This document shows, one piece after another, positions 15,104-58,919 of a DNA stretch of 64,000 nt. Position 1 is the first letter of the stretch. Each line of letters starts with the position of its first letter. Under the pieces are notes generated by a model. The model ran no database searches and had not been told where the DNA came from. It saw nothing but the letters and a program-made list of their open reading frames with translations. Source of the DNA: Lentisphaera marina (GTDB taxonomy: Bacteria > Verrucomicrobiota > Lentisphaeria > Lentisphaerales > Lentisphaeraceae); assembly GCF_028745505.1 (NCBI RefSeq), contig NZ_JAQZZL010000001.1, positions 558,001-622,000 on the forward strand, in the 5' to 3' direction. A program made the translations under genes and the position numbers.

Positions 15104-15877
15104 ATGAAACTAAGATACTTAATCCCCCTCAGTTTTATGTTGACTTCACCTTTAATCGCCGAAGAGTATGACTCTGTAGAAAAAGCCCCCAAAGGCAAAC
15201 ATAAAATTGGCGTCTATGGCTGGGTTCCAAAGGTTGACGCCGACTCGACAGTCGACGGTGGTACCGCTCCTATTGATTTAAGTGCCAAAGATGTTCTCGA
15301 TAATTTATCTGGTGCTTTTTCTGGTCGTTATGAATACCTTCGCCACGACAAGATCGGATATTAAGGTGATTTTCAATGGGTTAACATAGAGAAAAATGAT
15401 GCTGATGTTGGCTCACTTGGACTCGACGTCGATATTGAACAAATAACAGCCGACCTTGGTATGTTCTATCGCCTCAATTTACGCAATGGAGCTTTTTTCG
15501 ACACGATGCTTGGTATTCGTTATGTTGACCTCAAACAAAAAATTGACGTCACACCTCCTGGTCCCATCCCTACACAAAATTTAGGTGGGAGTGAAGACTG
15601 GGTCGAACCCGTAATTGGTGCTCGTATAGGTCTTCCGATGACCGAGACATTAACTTTTATTATGCGTGGCGACTACGGTGGCTTTGGTGTTGGCTCAGCA
15701 GCTGATAAAAATTACAATGTAATCGTTGCAACTGAATGGGCTTTCGATGAACAGTGGTCTACTATTCTAGGTTGGAAGTATAATTACCTTGACTACTCGA
15801 GGGGAAGTGGAGCAGACGAATTTGGCTTTGATGGTAGCTTCTCTGGTGTCATCGCCGCTTTAACTTATAGTTTTTAA
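15104..15877 (+). pseudogene. Outer-membrane beta-barrel gene with in-frame TAA
   Basis: A single frame of 258 codons interrupted only by TAA at 15362-15364 (after residue 86). Upstream: signal peptide (MKLRYLIPLSFMLTSPLIAEE) and KHKIGVYGWVPKVDADSTVDG. Downstream in the same frame: GDFQWVNIE, then barrel strands to a C-terminal aromatic ending (FSGVIAALTYSF). Both halves look like one OmpA-type/'outer membrane beta-barrel' protein, so a single substitution (for example TAC/CAA to TAA) explains the break. As written only the first 86 residues would be made; reinitiation could start at ATG 15461. Co-transcribed with the gene at 14309. Confidence 0.75.
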
Positions 15878-16934: not shown

Positions 16935-16962
16935 TTGACATATTCGAATGTATGCATATACT
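16935..16962 (+). promoter_or_regulatory. Sigma-70-type promoter of the metH gene pair
   Basis: A consensus -35 TTGACA (16935-16940), a 16-base spacer and a -10 TATACT (16957-16962). Transcription would begin near 16969. This excludes the upstream in-frame ATG at 16948 as a start and supports ATG 16990. No cobalamin or SAM riboswitch fits in the roughly 20-base leader. Confidence 0.75.
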
Positions 16963-16989
16963 TCGGCAAAAATAAAGGATAAGTCTATA

Positions 16990-18000
16990 ATGACTAGTAA
17001 TCAAAAAATCAGATCCATTTTAAAAGATCGCATTATGGTCCTGGATGGTGCTATGGGCTCTATGCTTCAGGGTTACAAATTAAAAGAAGATGACTTTCGT
17101 GGAGAAAGGTTTAAAGATCACCATCTCCCACTTCAAGGTAACAACGACCTACTCTCAATCACACGTCCAGACGTCGTTCAAGAAATTCATGAAGCCTATT
17201 ATGAAGCGGGCGCAGACTTCGCTACAACTAACTCTTTCTCAGGGACAACCATAGCACAAGCCGATTATGAACTGGAAAGTGCCGTCTATGAAATCAATTT
17301 TCAATCTGCACAATGTGCTCGTAAAGCCGCTGATAAATATACTGAACTAACCCCAGATCAACCACGTTTTGTCGTTGGCGGTATGGGACCAACTAACCGC
17401 ACGGCATCAATTTCTCCTGATGTCAACGATCCGGGTATGAGACTTGTCACTTTTGACGACCTTAGAATTGCTTATTATGATCAGGCTAAAGGACTTCTCG
17501 ATGGTGGTGCAGATGTACTAATGGTTGAAACTGTCTTCGATACCCTTAACTGCAAAGCGGCTATCATGGCTATCAAAGAGTTGGAGGAAGACATTAAAAC
17601 AGACATTCCAATCATGGTTTCTGGGACGATTACCGATGCTTCAGGTCGCACCTTAACAGGTCAAACTGTTGAAGCATTTCATGCTTCGGTAAGACATGGT
17701 GATTTGCTCTCCGTAGGTTTAAACTGTGCTCTGGGTGCAAATGAAATGTACCCCTATATTAATCGTTTATCGAAGATTAGTAGTTTTGCTATCTCCGCAC
17801 ACCCCAATGCTGGCCTTCCTAACGAGTTTGGTCAATACGATGAAACGGCAGCAGTTATGGCACCTCAAGTAGAGGAGTTTATTAAAAATGGTCATGTGAA
17901 CATTATTGGCGGTTGCTGTGGAACAACACCCGATCACATTACAGCTTTTAAAAAACTTGCTGATCAATACAAACCACGCCAAGCTCAAAGCTTAGTTTAA
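16990..18000 (+). CDS. metH: Methionine synthase, homocysteine-binding module (separate MetH subunit)
   Basis: 336 aa containing only the first module of cobalamin-dependent methionine synthase: a homocysteine S-methyltransferase TIM barrel. Visible: [33 protein letters not shown] and zinc ligands in GLNCALG and [10 protein letters not shown]. coli MetH is about 1227 aa in one chain; here translation stops at a TAA and the remaining modules are in the next gene, 11 bases on, with its own GGAG. Start chosen at 16990 because AAAGGAT lies 9 bases upstream and the promoter overlaps the alternative ATG. The two products must assemble to transfer methyl from methylcobalamin to homocysteine. Confidence 0.93.
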
Positions 18001-18011
18001 GGAGATTTATT

Positions 18012-20702
18012 TTGGAAAAACAAGTCCCAGATATGATTCTTTCCGGTTTAGAGCCGCTCGTTGTCGACAAGAACACAGGTTTTGTAAATGTCGGTGAGAG
18101 AACAAACGTTACAGGTTCACGTAAATTTGCCCGCTTAATTCTCAATGAAGAATACGAAGAGGCGATAGCTGTAGCTCGCCAACAAGTCGAAGGTGGAGCC
18201 CAAATCATTGATATCAATATGGATGAAGGTATGCTCGATGGTGAAAAAGCCATGGTTCGTTACCTCAACCTCATAGCTGCTGAACCCGACATTGCCCGTG
18301 TACCCTTTATGATTGACTCCTCCAAGTGGGAAATTATTGAGGCAGGTCTTAAATGCGTTCAAGGTAAATCTATCGTGAACTCTATCTCTTTGAAGGAAGG
18401 TAAAGAACCTTTCGTTGAATACGCCAAAAAGATAAAAATGTATGGTGCTGCAGTCGTTGTTATGGCCTTTGATGAAAAGGGCCAAGCCGATACTTATGAT
18501 CGTCGTATTGAGATCTGTAAGAAATCTTACGATATCCTCGTCAATGAAATTGGCTTCCCCTGTGAGGACATTGTTTTTGACCCCAATATTTTCCCTGTTG
18601 GTACAGGTATAGATGAGCACAACAACTATGCTGTGGATTTTTTCGCTGCCACAAAATGGATTAAAGAAAACCTCCCTGGAGCTAAAGTTTCTGGTGGTCT
18701 TTCAAATGTAAGTTTCTCCTTCCGCGGTAATAATATTGTTCGTGAAGCCATGCACTCAGCTTTCCTTTATCACGGTATTCAAAATGGCCTTGATATGGCT
18801 ATTGTGAACCCAGCTATGCTCGAAATTTACGACGATATTCCAAAAGACCTCCTCGAGTATGTAGAAGATGTTCTACTCAATCGTAGATCAGATGCAACTG
18901 AACGCCTTCTCGACTTCGCAGAAGGACTTAAAGGCAAAGACGGTAAAGTCAAAAAAGTTGCCACACTTGAGTGGCGTAAAGAAGATCTCCAAAGTCGAGT
19001 TACTCACGCATTGGTAAAAGGTATAACTGAATTTATTGAAGATGATGTAGAAGAAGCACGACAGGCAGTAAATAAACCTATTGAAGTTATTGAAGGCTAC
19101 CTCATGAATGGCATGAATGTGGTTGGTGATCTTTTCGGTAGCGGAAAAATGTTCCTTCCACAAGTTGTGAAATCCGCTCGTGTTATGAAAAAAGCTGTAG
19201 CTTACCTGCTGCCCTACATTGAAGAAGAGAAAGCTGCTTCTGGTGATGTGTCCACTAATAATGGCACCATTATTATGGCGACCGTAAAAGGCGACGTTCA
19301 CGATATTGGTAAAAATATTGTAGGTGTTGTTCTCTCCTGCAATAACTTCGAAATTATTGACATCGGCGTTATGGTCCCACCTGAAAAAATTCTTGATGCA
19401 GCAGAAAAACACAATGCCGACATCATCGGCCTCTCCGGTCTCATTACTCCATCATTAGACGAAATGGTGACACTTGCATCGATGATGCAGGAACGCAAAA
19501 TGACTATCCCTCTGCTCATTGGCGGTGCTACTACTTCCCGTGTTCACACTGCAGTTAAAATTGATCCAGAGTACGACGGAACAGTTGTTCACGTTGTTGA
19601 TGCATCTAAATCCGTTCCCGTAGCATCAAGCCTTCTTTCCGACGATTTACATGACGACTTTATTGCTGATATTAAAGTCAACTACGATAAGGTACGCGAA
19701 AATCACGCTAATAAGCACAATACCAAAGCTATTATGCCCCTGGAAACAGCTCGTGCAGGAGCCATACAAGTTGACTGGTCCGACTTCAAAGTTGAAAAAC
19801 CAAGCTTCACTGGTGTGAAAGTTTTCGAAGATATAGAACTTAGCGAACTCCGCAAATACATCGATTGGTCACCATTTTTCAAGACATGGGATCTCCATGG
19901 TCGTTACCCAAAAATTCTCGAAGACGAAGTTGTGGGTGAAGAAGCTAAAAAATTATTTGCCGATGCCAACAAGATGCTCGACGAAATTATCGCCGAAGGC
20001 TGGCTCACGGCAAAAGCTGTTGTTGGTTTCTTCCCCGCTAATAAAAAGGGAACGGACGACACTGAACTCTATACCAGTGGTAGCCGTAGCGAAGTTCTCG
20101 AAACTCTTTGCCACATCCGTCAGCAAACAGAAAGACTCAAAGCTGAATCACCTTTCATGAGCCTAGCTGATTTCATCGCGCCAAAAGGTCATAAAGATTA
20201 CATGGGTGCATTCTGTGTGACTGCAGGTATTGGCTGTGAGGAAAAAGCCAAAGAATTCGAAAAAGATCACGATGATTACAATTCGATAATGGTCAAAGCC
20301 CTCGCAGACCGTTTTGCTGAAGCCTACGCAGAGATGATGCACGAAAAAGTTCGTAAAGAACTTTGGGGCTACGATAGCTCTGAAAGCTTGAGTAATCAGG
20401 AGCTCATTCGCGAAAAGTACCGTGGTATTCGACCTGCCCCAGGCTACCCTGCCTGCCCAGAACATACTGAAAAAGCCAAACTCTTTAGACTACTTAATGT
20501 TACTGATAACATAGGTGTAGAGCTTACAGATTCTTTCGCCATGTTCCCTGCTGCATCTGTCAGTGGTTGGTACTTTGGTCATCCAGAATCTCGCTATTTT
20601 GCCGTAGGTAAAATTGGTGAAGATCAGGTTGCGGATTACGCAGAACGCAAAGGTATGGAACTCAAAGATGCTCAACGCTGGTTGAATCCATTACGGGGTT
20701 AA
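18012..20702 (+). CDS. metH: Methionine synthase, folate/cobalamin/AdoMet modules (separate MetH subunit)
   Basis: 896 aa holding the rest of MetH in order: pterin-binding domain ([25 protein letters not shown], about 25-300), four-helix cap (about 330-415), B12-binding Rossmann domain with D428-V-H430-D-I-G433 (His430 is the cobalt ligand) and [13 protein letters not shown], then the AdoMet-dependent reactivation domain (about 570-896; [34 protein letters not shown]). TTG start, preceded by GGAG seven bases away. It uses methyltetrahydrofolate to remethylate cob(I)alamin. The cut lies between the Hcy and folate modules, a natural hinge in MetH. Operon with the Hcy module; terminator downstream. 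Confidence 0.93.
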
Positions 20703-24023: not shown

Positions 24024-25283
24024 ATGTATTATACAAGAACTAAAAAGCCATCTGAATACTCAGTTATTATTGCGATTGACTGGGCTGATCAAAAGCATGA
24101 TCTACGAATCCTTCGGGATTGTGAAGAAGAATGTAAAGTTATCAGTAGTGATTTACTTACGCTCAAAAAATTCTTTAATGAACTCATACTTGAATCTGTT
24201 AATGATCCCATCGCGGTTGTCATCGAAAGCTGCCAATCTGCACTGATGAATTTATTGATATCCATTAGTGAATTTGATGTCTATACAGTTCACCCGACCA
24301 CTTCTTCGAAGTTTGCTAAAACATTCCATCTTAGTGGCGCGAAAAGTGACCGAGCAGATACCAAATCATTACTTGAACTATACTTAAAACACCCTGATAA
24401 AGTTAAAAGAGTAGACGAATCTTTTTCAAAAGGAAAACTGAAGCGACTGAATATAAAAAGGCGTGATTTAGTAAATGATAGAACTCGTTTAACTAATCAA
24501 CTCACTGCATTGTTGAAGATCTATTATCCAAATGCACTCAAAGTCGTGGGGAATCATTTATATGCAGACATGTTTCTAGATTTTTTGGATAAATATCCAA
24601 GCCCGCAGGATATCATTAATGCTCATCAAATCGGCATTACTAAATTCTTTAACAAACGCAGTACAAGCCATACAAAAACAAAAGTGAGGGTTCAAATATT
24701 ACGCGCTTCTGTTATTGTTGTTAATGATGAAGATGAGGTGGATTACTACATATTTGAGATACAACAATTCTGCCACAGAATCCGGAGTTTAAATAAGGTT
24801 ATTAAAGCTTATGACGAAAAAATTGAGCAAGCTTATAGGGAAAATGAAGATCATGAAATATTCCAATCATTTCCAGGAGCAGGTCCTAGTATCGGACCAC
24901 GTCTTATGGCCTTCTTTGGAAACGATCGAGAAAAATTTCAGTCTGTAAATGAGGCTCTTAAAATCAGTGAAATAGCTCCTGTGACAATTCAGAGTGGGAA
25001 AATGAATATTGTCCGAAGACGTTTTTTATGCGACAGGTTCACTCAACTTAGTTTTGTTGAGTTTGCCAATAATTCCATAAGGTCATCAATATGGGCACAT
25101 GAATTTTATTATCATAAGAAAGCTCTAAACATACCTCACTTCACAATACTTAGAGCTTTGGCGTACAAATGGATTCGTATCATGTACAGTTGTTGGAAAA
25201 CGAGAACTCCATATAATGAAAAGACCTATCTAGAAGTATTGGAGCAGAGGCGACCAGCATGGTTTCAGAAATTCGTTAATTAA
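24024..25283 (+). CDS. IS110-family transposase
   Basis: 419 aa. N-terminal RuvC-like DEDD domain (VIIAIDWADQKHDLRI with the first Asp; VVIESCQSAL; KSDRADTKSLLEL carrying later acidic residues) and C-terminal Tnp20 domain (FQSFPGAGPSIGPRLMAFFG, with the serine later in the domain). Length and order match IS110 recombinases, which use RNA-guided site-specific insertion without inverted repeats or target duplications. A strong AAGGAG precedes the ATG. The frame is intact. Element boundaries cannot be fixed from this copy alone. Confidence 0.92.
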   Translation: MYYTRTKKPSEYSVIIAIDWADQKHDLRILRDCEEECKVISSDLLTLKKFFNELILESVNDPIAVVIESCQSALMNLLISISEFDVYTVHPTTSSKFAKTFHLSGAKSDRADTKSLLELYLKHPDKVKRVDESFSKGKLKRLNIKRRDLVNDRTRLTNQLTALLKIYYPNALKVVGNHLYADMFLDFLDKYPSPQDIINAHQIGITKFFNKRSTSHTKTKVRVQILRASVIVVNDEDEVDYYIFEIQQFCHRIRSLNKVIKAYDEKIEQAYRENEDHEIFQSFPGAGPSIGPRLMAFFGNDREKFQSVNEALKISEIAPVTIQSGKMNIVRRRFLCDRFTQLSFVEFANNSIRSSIWAHEFYYHKKALNIPHFTILRALAYKWIRIMYSCWKTRTPYNEKTYLEVLEQRRPAWFQKFVN

Positions 25284-49950: not shown

Positions 49951-51048
49951 CTAAATTTTCCCTAATCTTTTTAGGATATTTTTGATCTCGCTGGCTTCAG
50001 TTCCCTCTTCTCTGGCAACTTCTTCAGCTTTAGTTTCCATGTTAACTGCTACCCTTTCCATCTTAGTATTTTGGTCTATAGATTTTTTGATTTTTTCACG
50101 TGTTGTTTCTTCAGCCACGCGGTTGTAATCATCTACCAATTCGGCAGGTTTTCTAGAGTATAAAAGCGACACAGTAATATGTGGTCTTTCCAAATTGGGG
50201 TTTCTTACGACGCTATAAATAGGCGTCACTTTTTGTGCATCAAAATGATCCAAAATATTGTAAAATACGGTGTGGTCATAATTTTCCGGTACTTCTAGTA
50301 GAAAGAGCGCTTCAATGGGAACATCGGGACGCAACATTAGTTCATTATAATTTTCTTCTAATTGCTCATCAAAATAACGATCAGGATTATAGTCGAAATC
50401 TGTAAAGTAGTTAAAGAATGATTTAGCCTTATAAGCTTCAAAATCTTCCCTATCAATGTGACCTTCTAACAATTCGTATTTATCACCTTTTTCAGGGATA
50501 CTATCCAAAGTACTTAAGCTATTGCATATGAGTTCGTTGAAAGCTTTTTCAGCCATTCTACCTTCATACTTGCACTTATTACTAAAGAGGAATGTGTTAC
50601 CAGTATTGGTACTATCAACGCCTTTCCACAATGGACCCTGGAGGAATTCTATAGTGTTGTTCACGTACTCACTAGGCTCTTTCTTGGCGTAAGGCAATAT
50701 AATAATGAACTGGGTTCTATTTATATCACTCACTTTTTCAAGTGATGATATATAACTCAAAACTTGTGAAGTAATACCATTACCTGTACCACCACCAGAA
50801 GAAGTAATTATCGCATTACCTTTGATAATGTCTAAGAGTTGACCACGCACACTATTAAATGCGGTCTTACCTATGTTTGGATCCTTTTTAGAACCAACGA
50901 GCTGACCTTTTTCGTTGTTTGTGTACGCCAAAATGCTATTAGCTAGGCCTAGCTTGTGCATTTCGACTTCTGATACATTTATTACTGTCGCTTCTTTACT
51001 TAAGCCAGATGCAAGTTTGCCGCCGGCTCCACCGATTCCTATTATCAT
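49951..51048 (-). CDS. Tubulin/FtsZ-superfamily GTPase (TubZ-like)
   Basis: 365 aa. Recognisable nucleotide loops: T1 IIGIGGAGGKLA at the very N terminus, T3-like VGSKKDPNIGK (51-61), T4 tubulin signature SSGGGTGNG (83-91), a T6-like FSNK (155-158) and a T7/synergy loop HIDREDF (197-203) keeping the DxxD needed to hydrolyse GTP of the neighbouring subunit. A second domain and a Lys-rich C-terminal tail (IKNILKRLGKI) follow. It lacks the long FtsZ N terminus and GGGTGTGAAP, so it is not ordinary FtsZ. It overlaps a TubR-sized wHTH gene by four bases, as in tubRZ operons. Role in DNA segregation is inference. Confidence 0.75.
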   Translation of the reverse strand: MIIGIGGAGGKLASGLSKEATVINVSEVEMHKLGLANSILAYTNNEKGQLVGSKKDPNIGKTAFNSVRGQLLDIIKGNAIITSSGGGTGNGITSQVLSYISSLEKVSDINRTQFIIILPYAKKEPSEYVNNTIEFLQGPLWKGVDSTNTGNTFLFSNKCKYEGRMAEKAFNELICNSLSTLDSIPEKGDKYELLEGHIDREDFEAYKAKSFFNYFTDFDYNPDRYFDEQLEENYNELMLRPDVPIEALFLLEVPENYDHTVFYNILDHFDAQKVTPIYSVVRNPNLERPHITVSLLYSRKPAELVDDYNRVAEETTREKIKKSIDQNTKMERVAVNMETKAEEVAREEGTEASEIKNILKRLGKI

Positions 51049-51371
51049 TTCACTGTCTCCAGGTAGTTGGATTTTAAAATATCAAATTTTTCACCTAATC
51101 GCATGAGAGCCTTGGCTCCATGTTCAGTTAAATATAAACTCTTGCGATTTCGTTGTTCTCTAAGTTCAATGAACTGTAGGTACTTTAAGGTCTCTACATA
51201 CGACACAGCACTTTGCTTCGTTCTGGTCACACCCGATAACTTAAGGTCATCAAACACATTAGTTATATTATAACCAGCTCGTTTATCCTCCGCTACCATA
51301 GTCCAATAAAGAACCAGGAAGTGTTGGTAATCAAGACCTTCTATCTGCTGTCTGTAGAGTTCATCATTCAT
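51045..51371 (-). CDS. Small winged-helix DNA-binding protein (TubR-like by size and context)
   Basis: 108 aa. Predicted winged helix: helix region FLVLYWTMVAEDKRAGYN, recognition helix near TRTKQSAVSYVETLKYLQF, wing IELREQRNRKSLYLTEHGAKALMRL. TubR of type III plasmid partition is about 105 aa with the same layout and binds centromere repeats upstream of its own gene. Its stop overlaps the start of the tubulin-like GTPase (ATGA). A MarR/PadR-type local repressor is the alternative. Ribosome site weak (AAGG about 20 bases upstream). Confidence 0.6.
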   Translation of the reverse strand: MNDELYRQQIEGLDYQHFLVLYWTMVAEDKRAGYNITNVFDDLKLSGVTRTKQSAVSYVETLKYLQFIELREQRNRKSLYLTEHGAKALMRLGEKFDILKSNYLETVK

Positions 51372-51420
51372 AATAGTCTTTAATTTAATGATCCTTATTA
51401 ATAATTCAATTAAGTACTGT

Positions 51421-51714
51421 GATATAATATATTTAAGTATAGTGAAGTTTAATATAGTGTGGTGTAGTTAACTTTAGTGTAGTTTGTTTATATATTGTAT
51501 ATAACTAATTTTATTTAAGTGGTTTATGTTTATGTGTTGTTACTTGTTTGTTTAGTTGGTAGTTTTCTATTGTTTTGATTGTTTTGATTGTTTATAGTGT
51601 AGTGTACTATAAATAATTATCTTCTATTAATGTAATTTCTTTATTGTTAATTATTTATGTTTTTTAATCATGGTTTATGTTGTGTTGTATATATATAGTA
51701 TAGTATACTACTAT
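51421..51714. repeat. Repeats of a TATAGTGTAGT-type motif upstream of the TubR-like gene
   Basis: At least five related units: TATAGTGAAGTTT (51438-51450), TATAGTGTGGTGTAGTT (51453-51469), TTTAGTGTAGTTT (51473-51485), TATAGTGTAGTGTACTATA (51593-51611) and a longer near-palindrome starting TATAGTATAGTATACTA (51694-51714). There is also a tandem TTTTGATTG pair (51570-51590). The strand bias (G and T on the plus strand) is strong. Position just upstream of the wHTH gene is where tubC centromeres lie; an autoregulatory operator is the simpler option. Confidence 0.45.
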
Positions 51715-57349: not shown

Positions 57350-58919
57350 AGACTGTTGATAAACCCCCGTTTTTGTAACAGGGGTTTTCTTTTTGTACAG
57401 AAAAGCAAATATTTTATAATTTCAACAAAAGGTTCTTACAGTATGTAGAAATGTCTTGCAGGAGCTTGTTGGTGTTTTCTTGAGTGAAATTCTGCGTTCA
57501 TCAAGAAATGCAGTGCTCCTTTACGAAGCGATAGCAATTTTCTTCATATTTTGGCATGCGGCGGCTAAAAGACACTGCTCTTGAACCTTTTTAATTCCAC
57601 GCAATTTCGCATAACGGTGACCGTGTAATTGCTTTGAGTCAGCGAAACTCCTCTCCACGGTTTCCTGCCTTCGTTTATATAGGATTTTACCTTCTGGTGT
57701 GAGTCGGTTTTTCTTGATGCACTCTTTTTGATCCTCCCAGATATGTCGTGTGACGATCTTTGTGTGATTCGCACTTTTTGTACACTGGCTTCGCAATGAG
57801 CAGTTGGTGCAGGTTTTAGGGTTTGAAGCATATTCGCGGAAGCCTTCGCGAGTGGTTGTTCGATAAGGAAGTACCTGCTCTGCCGGGCAGGTATAGCTAT
57901 TGTCTGTAGAGTTGTAAATGAACTGACTTTTCCGGAAATAACCTTTAATATGGTTCGGGCGTCGATAGCTTATCACACCGAAAATATCTCGATCCACAAG
58001 TCCTTTGCAGATTCCCGCGGTGAAATAACCGGCATCTAAACCAACAGCTTCGACATTAAAATTAAACCGTTCAAGTTGGTGATCCAAGCGCTTGAGATAC
58101 GGGATACTGTCGTGAACATTTCCCGCGGTGACAAAACTGTCAGTGATAATATTAAACTTCCCATCGACAGTCCTGTGATCTAGATAGAAAAAGCCTTTGG
58201 GTTTACCATCCCTGACCATATAACCACTGTCTGGATCAGTGGTGCTGATCTTCGTTTCTTTAATCACCGGGCTACTATCTTTTTTTTTGAGAGGCTTCTT
58301 ATCATTTTGAGCTCGATCTTTCGCGATATCTTTATTGAGAACATCTAAATAATCTCGAGTCGACTTCTCAACGTCTTGCTTATCAAATTTATTCTTATTG
58401 GCATTAGCCTTTAAGTGAGTAGAGTCGGTATAAAGGTGCTTTCCATCGACAAGCTTACGCTCCATAGCTAAGAGAACGATCTCATCGAATATTTCTTGAT
58501 AAACATTGCTCTCTTGAAAACGACGGCGACGGTTTTGGCTGATGGTTGAGTGGTGCGGAATTTTATCCTGTAAGTTATAACCAAGAAACCAGCGATAAGC
58601 CATATTCATTTCTATCTCACGAATGAGTTGACGCTCGCTGCGAATACCAAATAGATATCCAATAAAAAGCATCTTAAAAAGAACGACTGGATCAACGCCG
58701 GGACGACCATTTGTTGGGCAATAGAGGTGTGCCACCTTGTGGTGAATGAATTCAAAATCGACAATGGAGTCGATCTTCCGCAAAAGGTGGTCTTGCGGAA
58801 CTAATTGCTCAAGGCAAACGAATTCAAACTCGGACTGTTTTGACTGTTTTTTAATCATTAGTCAATATAATTTAACCAATAAAAAAGTCCTCCACACGGG
58901 AGGACTTTGTCAACAGTCT
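57350..58919. mobile_element. IS1182-family insertion sequence in a terminator, with long palindromic target duplication
   Basis: 1570 bp. Inverted ends AGACTGTTGA(T/C)AAA at 57350-57363 and the complement at 58906-58919. Both sides abut exact copies of the 26-bp hairpin. IS1182 elements are known for variable, long palindromic target duplications. Internal hairpins sit at each end (57361-57392 and 58884-58908), likely shielding the transposase from read-through. Transposase intact. Confidence 0.92.
57521..58858 (-). CDS. IS1182-family transposase
   Basis: 445 aa. N-terminal DUF772 domain (LVPQDHLLRKIDSIVDFEF... GRPGVDPVVLFKMLFIGYLFGIRSERQLIREI), DDE catalytic residues in LYTDSTHLKANANK, AVGLDAGYFTAGI and the C-terminal RRQETVERSFADSKQLHGHRYAKLRG, plus a four-cysteine cluster (CPAEQV... 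CTNCSLRSQC). Typical of IS5-superfamily IS1182. No frameshift. Antisense frames inside were ignored. Confidence 0.95.
   Translation of the reverse strand: MIKKQSKQSEFEFVCLEQLVPQDHLLRKIDSIVDFEFIHHKVAHLYCPTNGRPGVDPVVLFKMLFIGYLFGIRSERQLIREIEMNMAYRWFLGYNLQDKIPHHSTISQNRRRRFQESNVYQEIFDEIVLLAMERKLVDGKHLYTDSTHLKANANKNKFDKQDVEKSTRDYLDVLNKDIAKDRAQNDKKPLKKKDSSPVIKETKISTTDPDSGYMVRDGKPKGFFYLDHRTVDGKFNIITDSFVTAGNVHDSIPYLKRLDHQLERFNFNVEAVGLDAGYFTAGICKGLVDRDIFGVISYRRPNHIKGYFRKSQFIYNSTDNSYTCPAEQVLPYRTTTREGFREYASNPKTCTNCSLRSQCTKSANHTKIVTRHIWEDQKECIKKNRLTPEGKILYKRRQETVERSFADSKQLHGHRYAKLRGIKKVQEQCLLAAACQNMKKIAIAS

Follow-up and report, generated by a model that had tools for sequence, protein, structure and literature searches.

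Introduction

According to published descriptions (PMC5016525, PMC7762940; all papers cited by accession are represented here by excerpts), plasmids and phages are the typical carriers of type III (TubZRC) partition systems, and the systems in the literature seen serve such elements. In the plasmid systems the centromere, tubC, lies upstream of tubRZ with its repeats arranged in blocks and the TubZ tail is basic (PMC5016525, PMC7762940), and TubR acts as a repressor of its operon (PMC5016525). According to PMC7762940 the centromeres of partition systems are not conserved in sequence, and TubZ is treated as plasmid-borne in Firmicutes (PMC9871819). Some Clostridia have chromosomal TubZ and TubY but no chromosomal TubR, and ParAB is presumed to carry out segregation there (PMC7762940). 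No report of TubZRC in Lentisphaerota was found in searches of open-licence literature, nor, in the excerpts of that literature, one of tubulin-driven chromosome segregation of the kind considered here.

The subject of this analysis is a cassette in a 64-kb stretch of the Lentisphaera marina genome (contig NZ_JAQZZL010000001.1, positions 558,001 to 622,000; hereafter the window), consisting of a gene for a tubulin-superfamily GTPase, a winged-helix gene that precedes it, and an array of 5-bp repeats upstream of both (Table 1). Judged from gene order, predicted fold, repeats and conservation, the cassette most probably belongs to the TubZRC kind, of which it would be a new chromosomal form, and we give a probability of about 0.6 to its being a chromosome-borne type III partition system that moves the origin region.

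The gene pair and its predicted folds

Both open reading frames have the coordinates, strand and length given in an earlier note, made from the letters of this DNA, and they share the 4-bp overlap (ATGA) described there. The note had read the locus as a chromosomal or relic TubZRC-like cassette for DNA segregation, or else as a new tubulin cytoskeleton with its own regulator; structures, profiles and comparison with relatives uphold the order, fold and repeats of the TubZRC reading and leave the relic without support. All of the GTPase loops it named (GIGGAGGK, GGGTGNG and the D199xxD202 pair, the T7-type acids) are present, and residues G85-G89, G91, D199 and D202 are invariant in an alignment of 49 family members. 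The structural comparison proposed in the note places TubZ nearest to the GTPase fold, with TubZ structures in the top seven places, and TubR (4asn) is the best match of the small protein by both sequence and structure, although its first structural rank is tied with MarR-like folds.

On the window GTPase, PF00091 scores 18 bits against a cut-off of 33, which is passed by the GTPases of nine relatives (39.9 in G047, 39.3 in G039, 35 in G004 and barely in six others), and the Tubulin_2 profile scores 9.6 bits, short of its cut-off of 27, matching six of the 49 members at E<=1 (best 0.0034). Searches of NCBIfam and PHROGs with the GTPase and the winged-helix protein returned weak matches only. 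The C-terminal end of the GTPase carries a conserved short peptide of the type D-[IV]-L-x-x-L-[KR]-R-L-G-K, and its last 12 residues have a net charge of +1 to +5 in 49/49 members (-3 to +5 over the last 45 residues).

The earlier note had made its reading depend on the two genes being conserved together, and the winged-helix gene lies directly upstream of the GTPase gene in all 56 readable loci of the 59 examined, separated by -4 to +10 bp in 55 of them and by 146 bp in one. Within the class, the winged-helix gene is present in 32 of 59 genomes, every one a carrier of the GTPase.

Table 1. Features of the cassette and a neighbouring landmark (window positions)
Feature	Position	Strand	Basis
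TubZ-like tubulin-superfamily GTPase, 365 aa	49951..51048	-	Open reading frame with conserved residues, profiles, structure
TubR-like winged-helix protein, 108 aa, upstream partner of the GTPase gene	51045..51371	-	Open reading frame with profiles, structure
Main 5-bp array of ten AGTNN/ACTNN units; putative centromere (tubC) and operator	51436..51485		Sequence reading and repeat scans
Second array block, three in-register units	51596..51610		Read by eye
Third array block, three in-register units	51697..51711		Read by eye
Cumulative GC-skew low point of the window, approximate replication origin of the replicon; neighbour, outside the cassette	15575..15575		GC skew

A 5-bp array common across the class

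The upstream repeats of the earlier note are present and are best read as a tandem 5-bp array, a reading that draws its strength from the relatives. The main array has eight exact and two imperfect units, and a scan of the window for at least six of eight units matches there alone. The longest exact run in the 500 bp upstream of the window's cassette is four units, a length matched by 1 of 200 dinucleotide shuffles. The array was surveyed in 58 upstream regions (the window, two congeners and 55 named loci, some closely related to one another), where the longest exact ACT/AGT run at period 5 averages 4.5 units and reaches 11, with at least three units in 53 regions, at least four in 39 and at least five in 18. 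Other periods from 3 to 12 give mean longest runs of 1.1-1.4, except for the harmonic at period 10 (3.5), and 54 downstream control regions give a mean of 1.07 and a maximum of 2. ACT/AGT is the best of the 64 trinucleotides in the period-5 test of the upstream regions, and a 2.4-Mb sample drawn from five genomes has arrays with six or more of eight units solely at the two cassette loci included. The array is common across the class. A strict pattern of four ACTNN units has no match in the window's own genome (3+5 for the reversed control) because the array of the window mixes ACT and AGT.

Distribution and inheritance

The GTPase occurs in 33 of 59 class relatives, always as a single copy, which in G018 is split into two pieces of one frame. 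Among the 387 genomes of a phylum sample, full-length matches (E 1e-147 or lower) were obtained in 36, of which 34 belong to the class and two (G114 and G265) do not. Another 24 matches are weak (E 6e-8 to 8e-4), extend over the N-terminal part only and are taken to be FtsZ. Four further genomes of the genus of G114 (G060, G077, G079 and G159) are not among the GTPase matches of this sample. The named relatives, 59 loci in all, include Lentisphaeraceae, Oligosphaera ethanolica and Victivallales metagenome-assembled genomes, with a few labelled Pontiellaceae, Kiritimatiellota or Verrucomicrobia. Where contigs are long, the cassette sits on replicons of 1.9-5.7 Mb, and no relative was found in the searched collections of viral contigs, plasmids and phages. 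The earlier note proposed a search for the pair and its repeats elsewhere; loci of relatives gave the pair in 56/56 and the array in 53/58, and the plasmid collection gave no relative.

A quick-method tree of 34 GTPase sequences, restricted to family members (29 from among the 33 carriers, plus five more), recovers families f1, f2, f3, f11 and f13 each as one clade with SH-aLRT support of 97-99. Three Kiritimatiellota-type rows are nested inside the tree next to f18 and f4, a placement suggestive of transfer from the class to other lineages. The like-for-like measure of conservation comes from 13 genomes with both GTPase and FtsZ (78 pairs), in which the mean pairwise identity is 56% for the GTPase and 34% for FtsZ, the GTPase is the more alike in 78/78 pairs, and the two sets of identities correlate (r 0.89). 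Mean column identities of 58-61% and 40%, respectively, are not like for like, as the FtsZ alignment (A5, with row L043 left out) included non-carriers. The GTPase is strongly constrained, and this, together with the conserved pair and the single copy, contradicts the relic of the earlier note. Distribution, adjacency of the pair, the family-following tree and the correlated identities together point to inheritance with the lineage.

Position on the chromosome and ParB

In sampled GC-skew profiles, four replicons have a clear minimum, and the cassette lies ~10-50 kb from it in three and 0.5-0.75 Mb away in the fourth. On contig C1 of the window's genome (G000) the minimum lies somewhere within 548-685 kb, the low point in Table 1 falling at ~574 kb and the cassette at 608-609 kb; on C1 of a congener (G001) the minimum is at 2.68-2.72 Mb and the cassette at 2.7295 Mb; and in G114 the minimum is near 1.385 Mb, where dnaA is also found (1,385,867), with the cassette at 1.430 Mb. 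In G000, G011 and G006 the dnaA gene and the cassette are far apart, and in G001 they lie on different contigs. As a separate observation, C1 and C2 of G000 and G001 are large replicons, each with its own rise and fall of skew, as if the genus had two chromosomes, and dnaA is found on C1 of G000 but C2 of G001, indicating either rearrangement or a difference of assembly.

ParB is nearly absent from the class, though most of the phylum sample has it. Of the 59 class relatives, 2 exceed the cut-off of profile TIGR00180 and 8 match it at E<=1e-8; the cut-off is exceeded in 96 of 145 genomes of a phylum sample, 92 of them outside the class, non-matching genomes being incompletely represented in that count.

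A proposed mechanism and the evidence against it

The gene pair, predicted folds, catalytic residues, array, origin-near place in three of four replicons, lineage inheritance and near-absence of ParB are computed results; DNA binding, polymerization, force and segregation by the cassette are what we infer. Dimers of the TubR-like protein would bind and coat the tandem array, which would repress the operon and turn the array into a centromere. TubZ-like monomers would polymerize with GTP, and the filaments would hold or pull the array-TubR complex, probably via the conserved basic C-terminal end, so that the origin regions of sister chromosomes would be moved apart. The DNA segregation proposed by the earlier note gains strength, as a possible function, from the centromere-like array, from the origin-near place in three of four replicons and from the near-absence of ParB.

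Several observations weigh against this partition reading. Among the comparisons of fold, the last of the seven TubZ rows (25.4) shares its place with CetZ and FtsZ, apo-TubZ 4ei8 (23.6) and PhiKZ TubZ (22.5) rank beneath FtsZ, and sequence-profile comparison of the GTPase leaves FtsZ and TubZ level; for the small protein, besides the tie with MarR-like folds, Foldseek places TubR seventh, with no match at E<=0.001. Runs are shorter than three units in five of the 58 upstream regions (L108, L111, L114 with 137 bp only, L115 and L131), and the position of the array upstream of the operon would also suit a role as operator only. The cassette is missing from 26 of 59 class relatives, and these non-carriers mostly lack ParB as well, so the cassette is not the sole way of living without ParB and members of the class can do without both. 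In G114 the cassette coexists with a ParB located 1.3 Mb from the skew minimum. As for position, G011 is the replicon with the distant cassette, G006 has no clear skew, and, as G000 and G001 are congeners, two independent lineages back the origin-near place. Lastly, FtsZ looks damaged or is unrecognized in 19 of 33 carriers, a hint at a role in division too.

FtsZ in carriers and non-carriers

Class genomes also have a separate FtsZ gene. Under a criterion set in this analysis (three signature glycines kept and the C-domain aligned), 24 of the 26 non-carriers have an intact-looking FtsZ, as against 14 of the 33 carriers. The damaged or unrecognized cases are those of the window's genus (3/3), G010 and all 15 carrier Oligosphaeraceae (f3); the FtsZ row of G044 has 18 bits only and may not be FtsZ. 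The two non-carriers outside the criterion are G046 and G058, the latter a further Oligosphaeraceae genome with damaged FtsZ, 79% complete, in which the cassette was not found. Damage in carriers is confined to about three clades, hence its link to the cassette is suggestive only.

Even at E<=10, PF00091 finds no tubulin in the window's genus except the cassette GTPase. The idea that the window's genome is without FtsZ was nonetheless rejected, as a class-specific profile found a degenerate FtsZ (357-aa frame, E 1.2e-12), and the idea that the cassette replaces FtsZ wherever present was rejected on the 14 carriers with an intact-looking FtsZ. The FtsZ of the window's genus (L149:1165-2235, at G000:C2 ~1.962 Mb, and also L148 and L150) has lost the tubulin signature and kept the end peptide LKVPTYKRLGIKV; it is probably a pseudo-GTPase. 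In Oligosphaeraceae, FtsZ (L143-L147, L151-L153) is frequently short, in frames of 187-317 aa; its C-domain is then unaligned and its end peptide mostly kept. FtsA is kept in the window's genus, and as ftsA lies on contig C2 of the window's genome and the cassette on C1, the GTPase gene is not beside it. Published statements vary: a reviewer's remark printed with PMC2474590 mentions a non-functional ftsZ homolog in Lentisphaera, PMC5147048 lists FtsZ for L. araneosa in one place and in another describes PVC bacteria except Verrucomicrobia and Omnitrophica as being without FtsZ, and PMC12283558 treats the division cluster as a conserved feature of Lentisphaerota, each in the excerpts available.

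Alternative explanations

The chief rival, which we consider unlikely, is that the GTPase is a division tubulin that takes over or shares the work of FtsZ, with the winged-helix protein and array merely regulating the operon. The uneven state of FtsZ in carriers and non-carriers, the lost signature in all three genomes of the window's genus, where PF00091 finds no other tubulin, the retention of FtsA there, and an end peptide of the GTPase that recalls, by eye, that of FtsZ (DIPTFQRR) all speak for it, and because FtsZ looks damaged in many carriers the new tubulin cytoskeleton of the earlier note keeps some probability in this form. Yet 14 carriers keep an intact-looking FtsZ alongside the cassette, the damage is limited to a few clades, TubZ is structurally closer to the GTPase than FtsZ is, the peptide resemblance is short and by eye only, and a division tubulin leaves both the origin-near place and the 5-bp array unexplained. 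An ordinary, merely divergent FtsZ scarcely merits belief: the weak PF00091 match and the nine relatives above its cut-off would fit it, but the same genomes have a separate FtsZ gene, TubZ is the closer structure and ftsA is elsewhere.

A self-regulated tubulin cytoskeleton with another task (organization of an organelle, the membrane or the nucleoid), in which the array is an operator only, is less probable than a division tubulin. It would agree with the place of the array upstream of the operon, with a GTGTAGTATAGTA-like site that lies nearer to the gene in several loci, and with the self-repression of plasmid TubR (PMC5016525), but an operator would be expected to be shorter than runs that reach 11 units, and the origin-near place and near-absence of ParB also count against it. 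That the cassette is a relic or passenger from a chromosome-integrated plasmid or phage would suit the usual home of type III systems; conservation within the lineage in 33 of 59 genomes, a tree that follows families and the lack of any related plasmid, phage or viral record in the collections searched make this highly improbable, and a relic or plasmid insert is disfavoured.

Neighbouring genes

In some loci of Oligosphaeraceae (L013:2511-3539, L028:2681-3847 and L029:2681-3847) the GTPase gene is followed immediately by one that resembles, by eye, a protein-kinase gene. Elsewhere in the window, metH (methionine synthase) is split over frames 16948-18000 and 18012-20702, matching NF007024 positions 5-338 and 341-1227, and an IS110-type transposase and a second transposase-like gene (by eye) occur at 24024-25283 and 57521-58858, the latter ~6 kb from the cassette.

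Implications

A chromosomal, inherited, origin-near system in bacteria where ParB is nearly absent would be a strong candidate for tubulin-driven bacterial chromosome segregation. A wider reading, to which we give somewhat less than even odds, is that many Lentisphaeria chromosomes are separated by a TubZRC tubulin machine in place of a lost ParABS and that, where FtsZ has lost its GTP-binding signature, the cassette GTPase, the sole intact-looking tubulin found, may serve segregation and perhaps division in the manner of a minimal mitotic apparatus. Two questions are made testable, namely the means of chromosome separation where ParABS is missing and the way in which PVC bacteria with a decayed FtsZ divide, and the class-wide 5-bp array is a ready candidate binding site for assays.

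Comparison with known systems

The partition reading can be set against four described systems. FtsZ shares with the cassette GTPase the superfamily fold, the GTP-binding signature, the T7 acids and a short conserved C-terminal peptide, and differs in being a separate gene of the same genomes, in its lower structural match than TubZ and in that the cassette GTPase is not beside ftsA. ParABS chromosome partition is alike in its origin-near place and in the task proposed here, and different in motor, adaptor and centromere. The chromosomal TubZ/TubY of Clostridia likewise place TubZ on the chromosome, but TubR is not chromosomal there and ParAB is thought to segregate (excerpts of PMC7762940), whereas the Lentisphaeria have a TubR-like gene and an array, with ParB nearly absent. 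Closest are the TubZRC systems of Bacillus plasmids and Clostridium phage c-st, which share the order array, tubR, tubZ, the small winged-helix protein, the TubZ-like fold, T7 acids of the DxxE/DxxD type, the basic C-terminal end and an upstream array in blocks. The window GTPase has 365 aa, compared with 382-414 residues in the chains of the Bacillus TubZ structures compared, and its array unit is common to a class, unlike partition centromeres, which are described as not conserved (PMC7762940, as excerpted). Finally, the known TubZRC systems are usually borne by plasmids and phages, whereas the Lentisphaeria cassette is chromosomal, single copy, inherited within the class and near the origin in three of the four replicons with a clear skew minimum.
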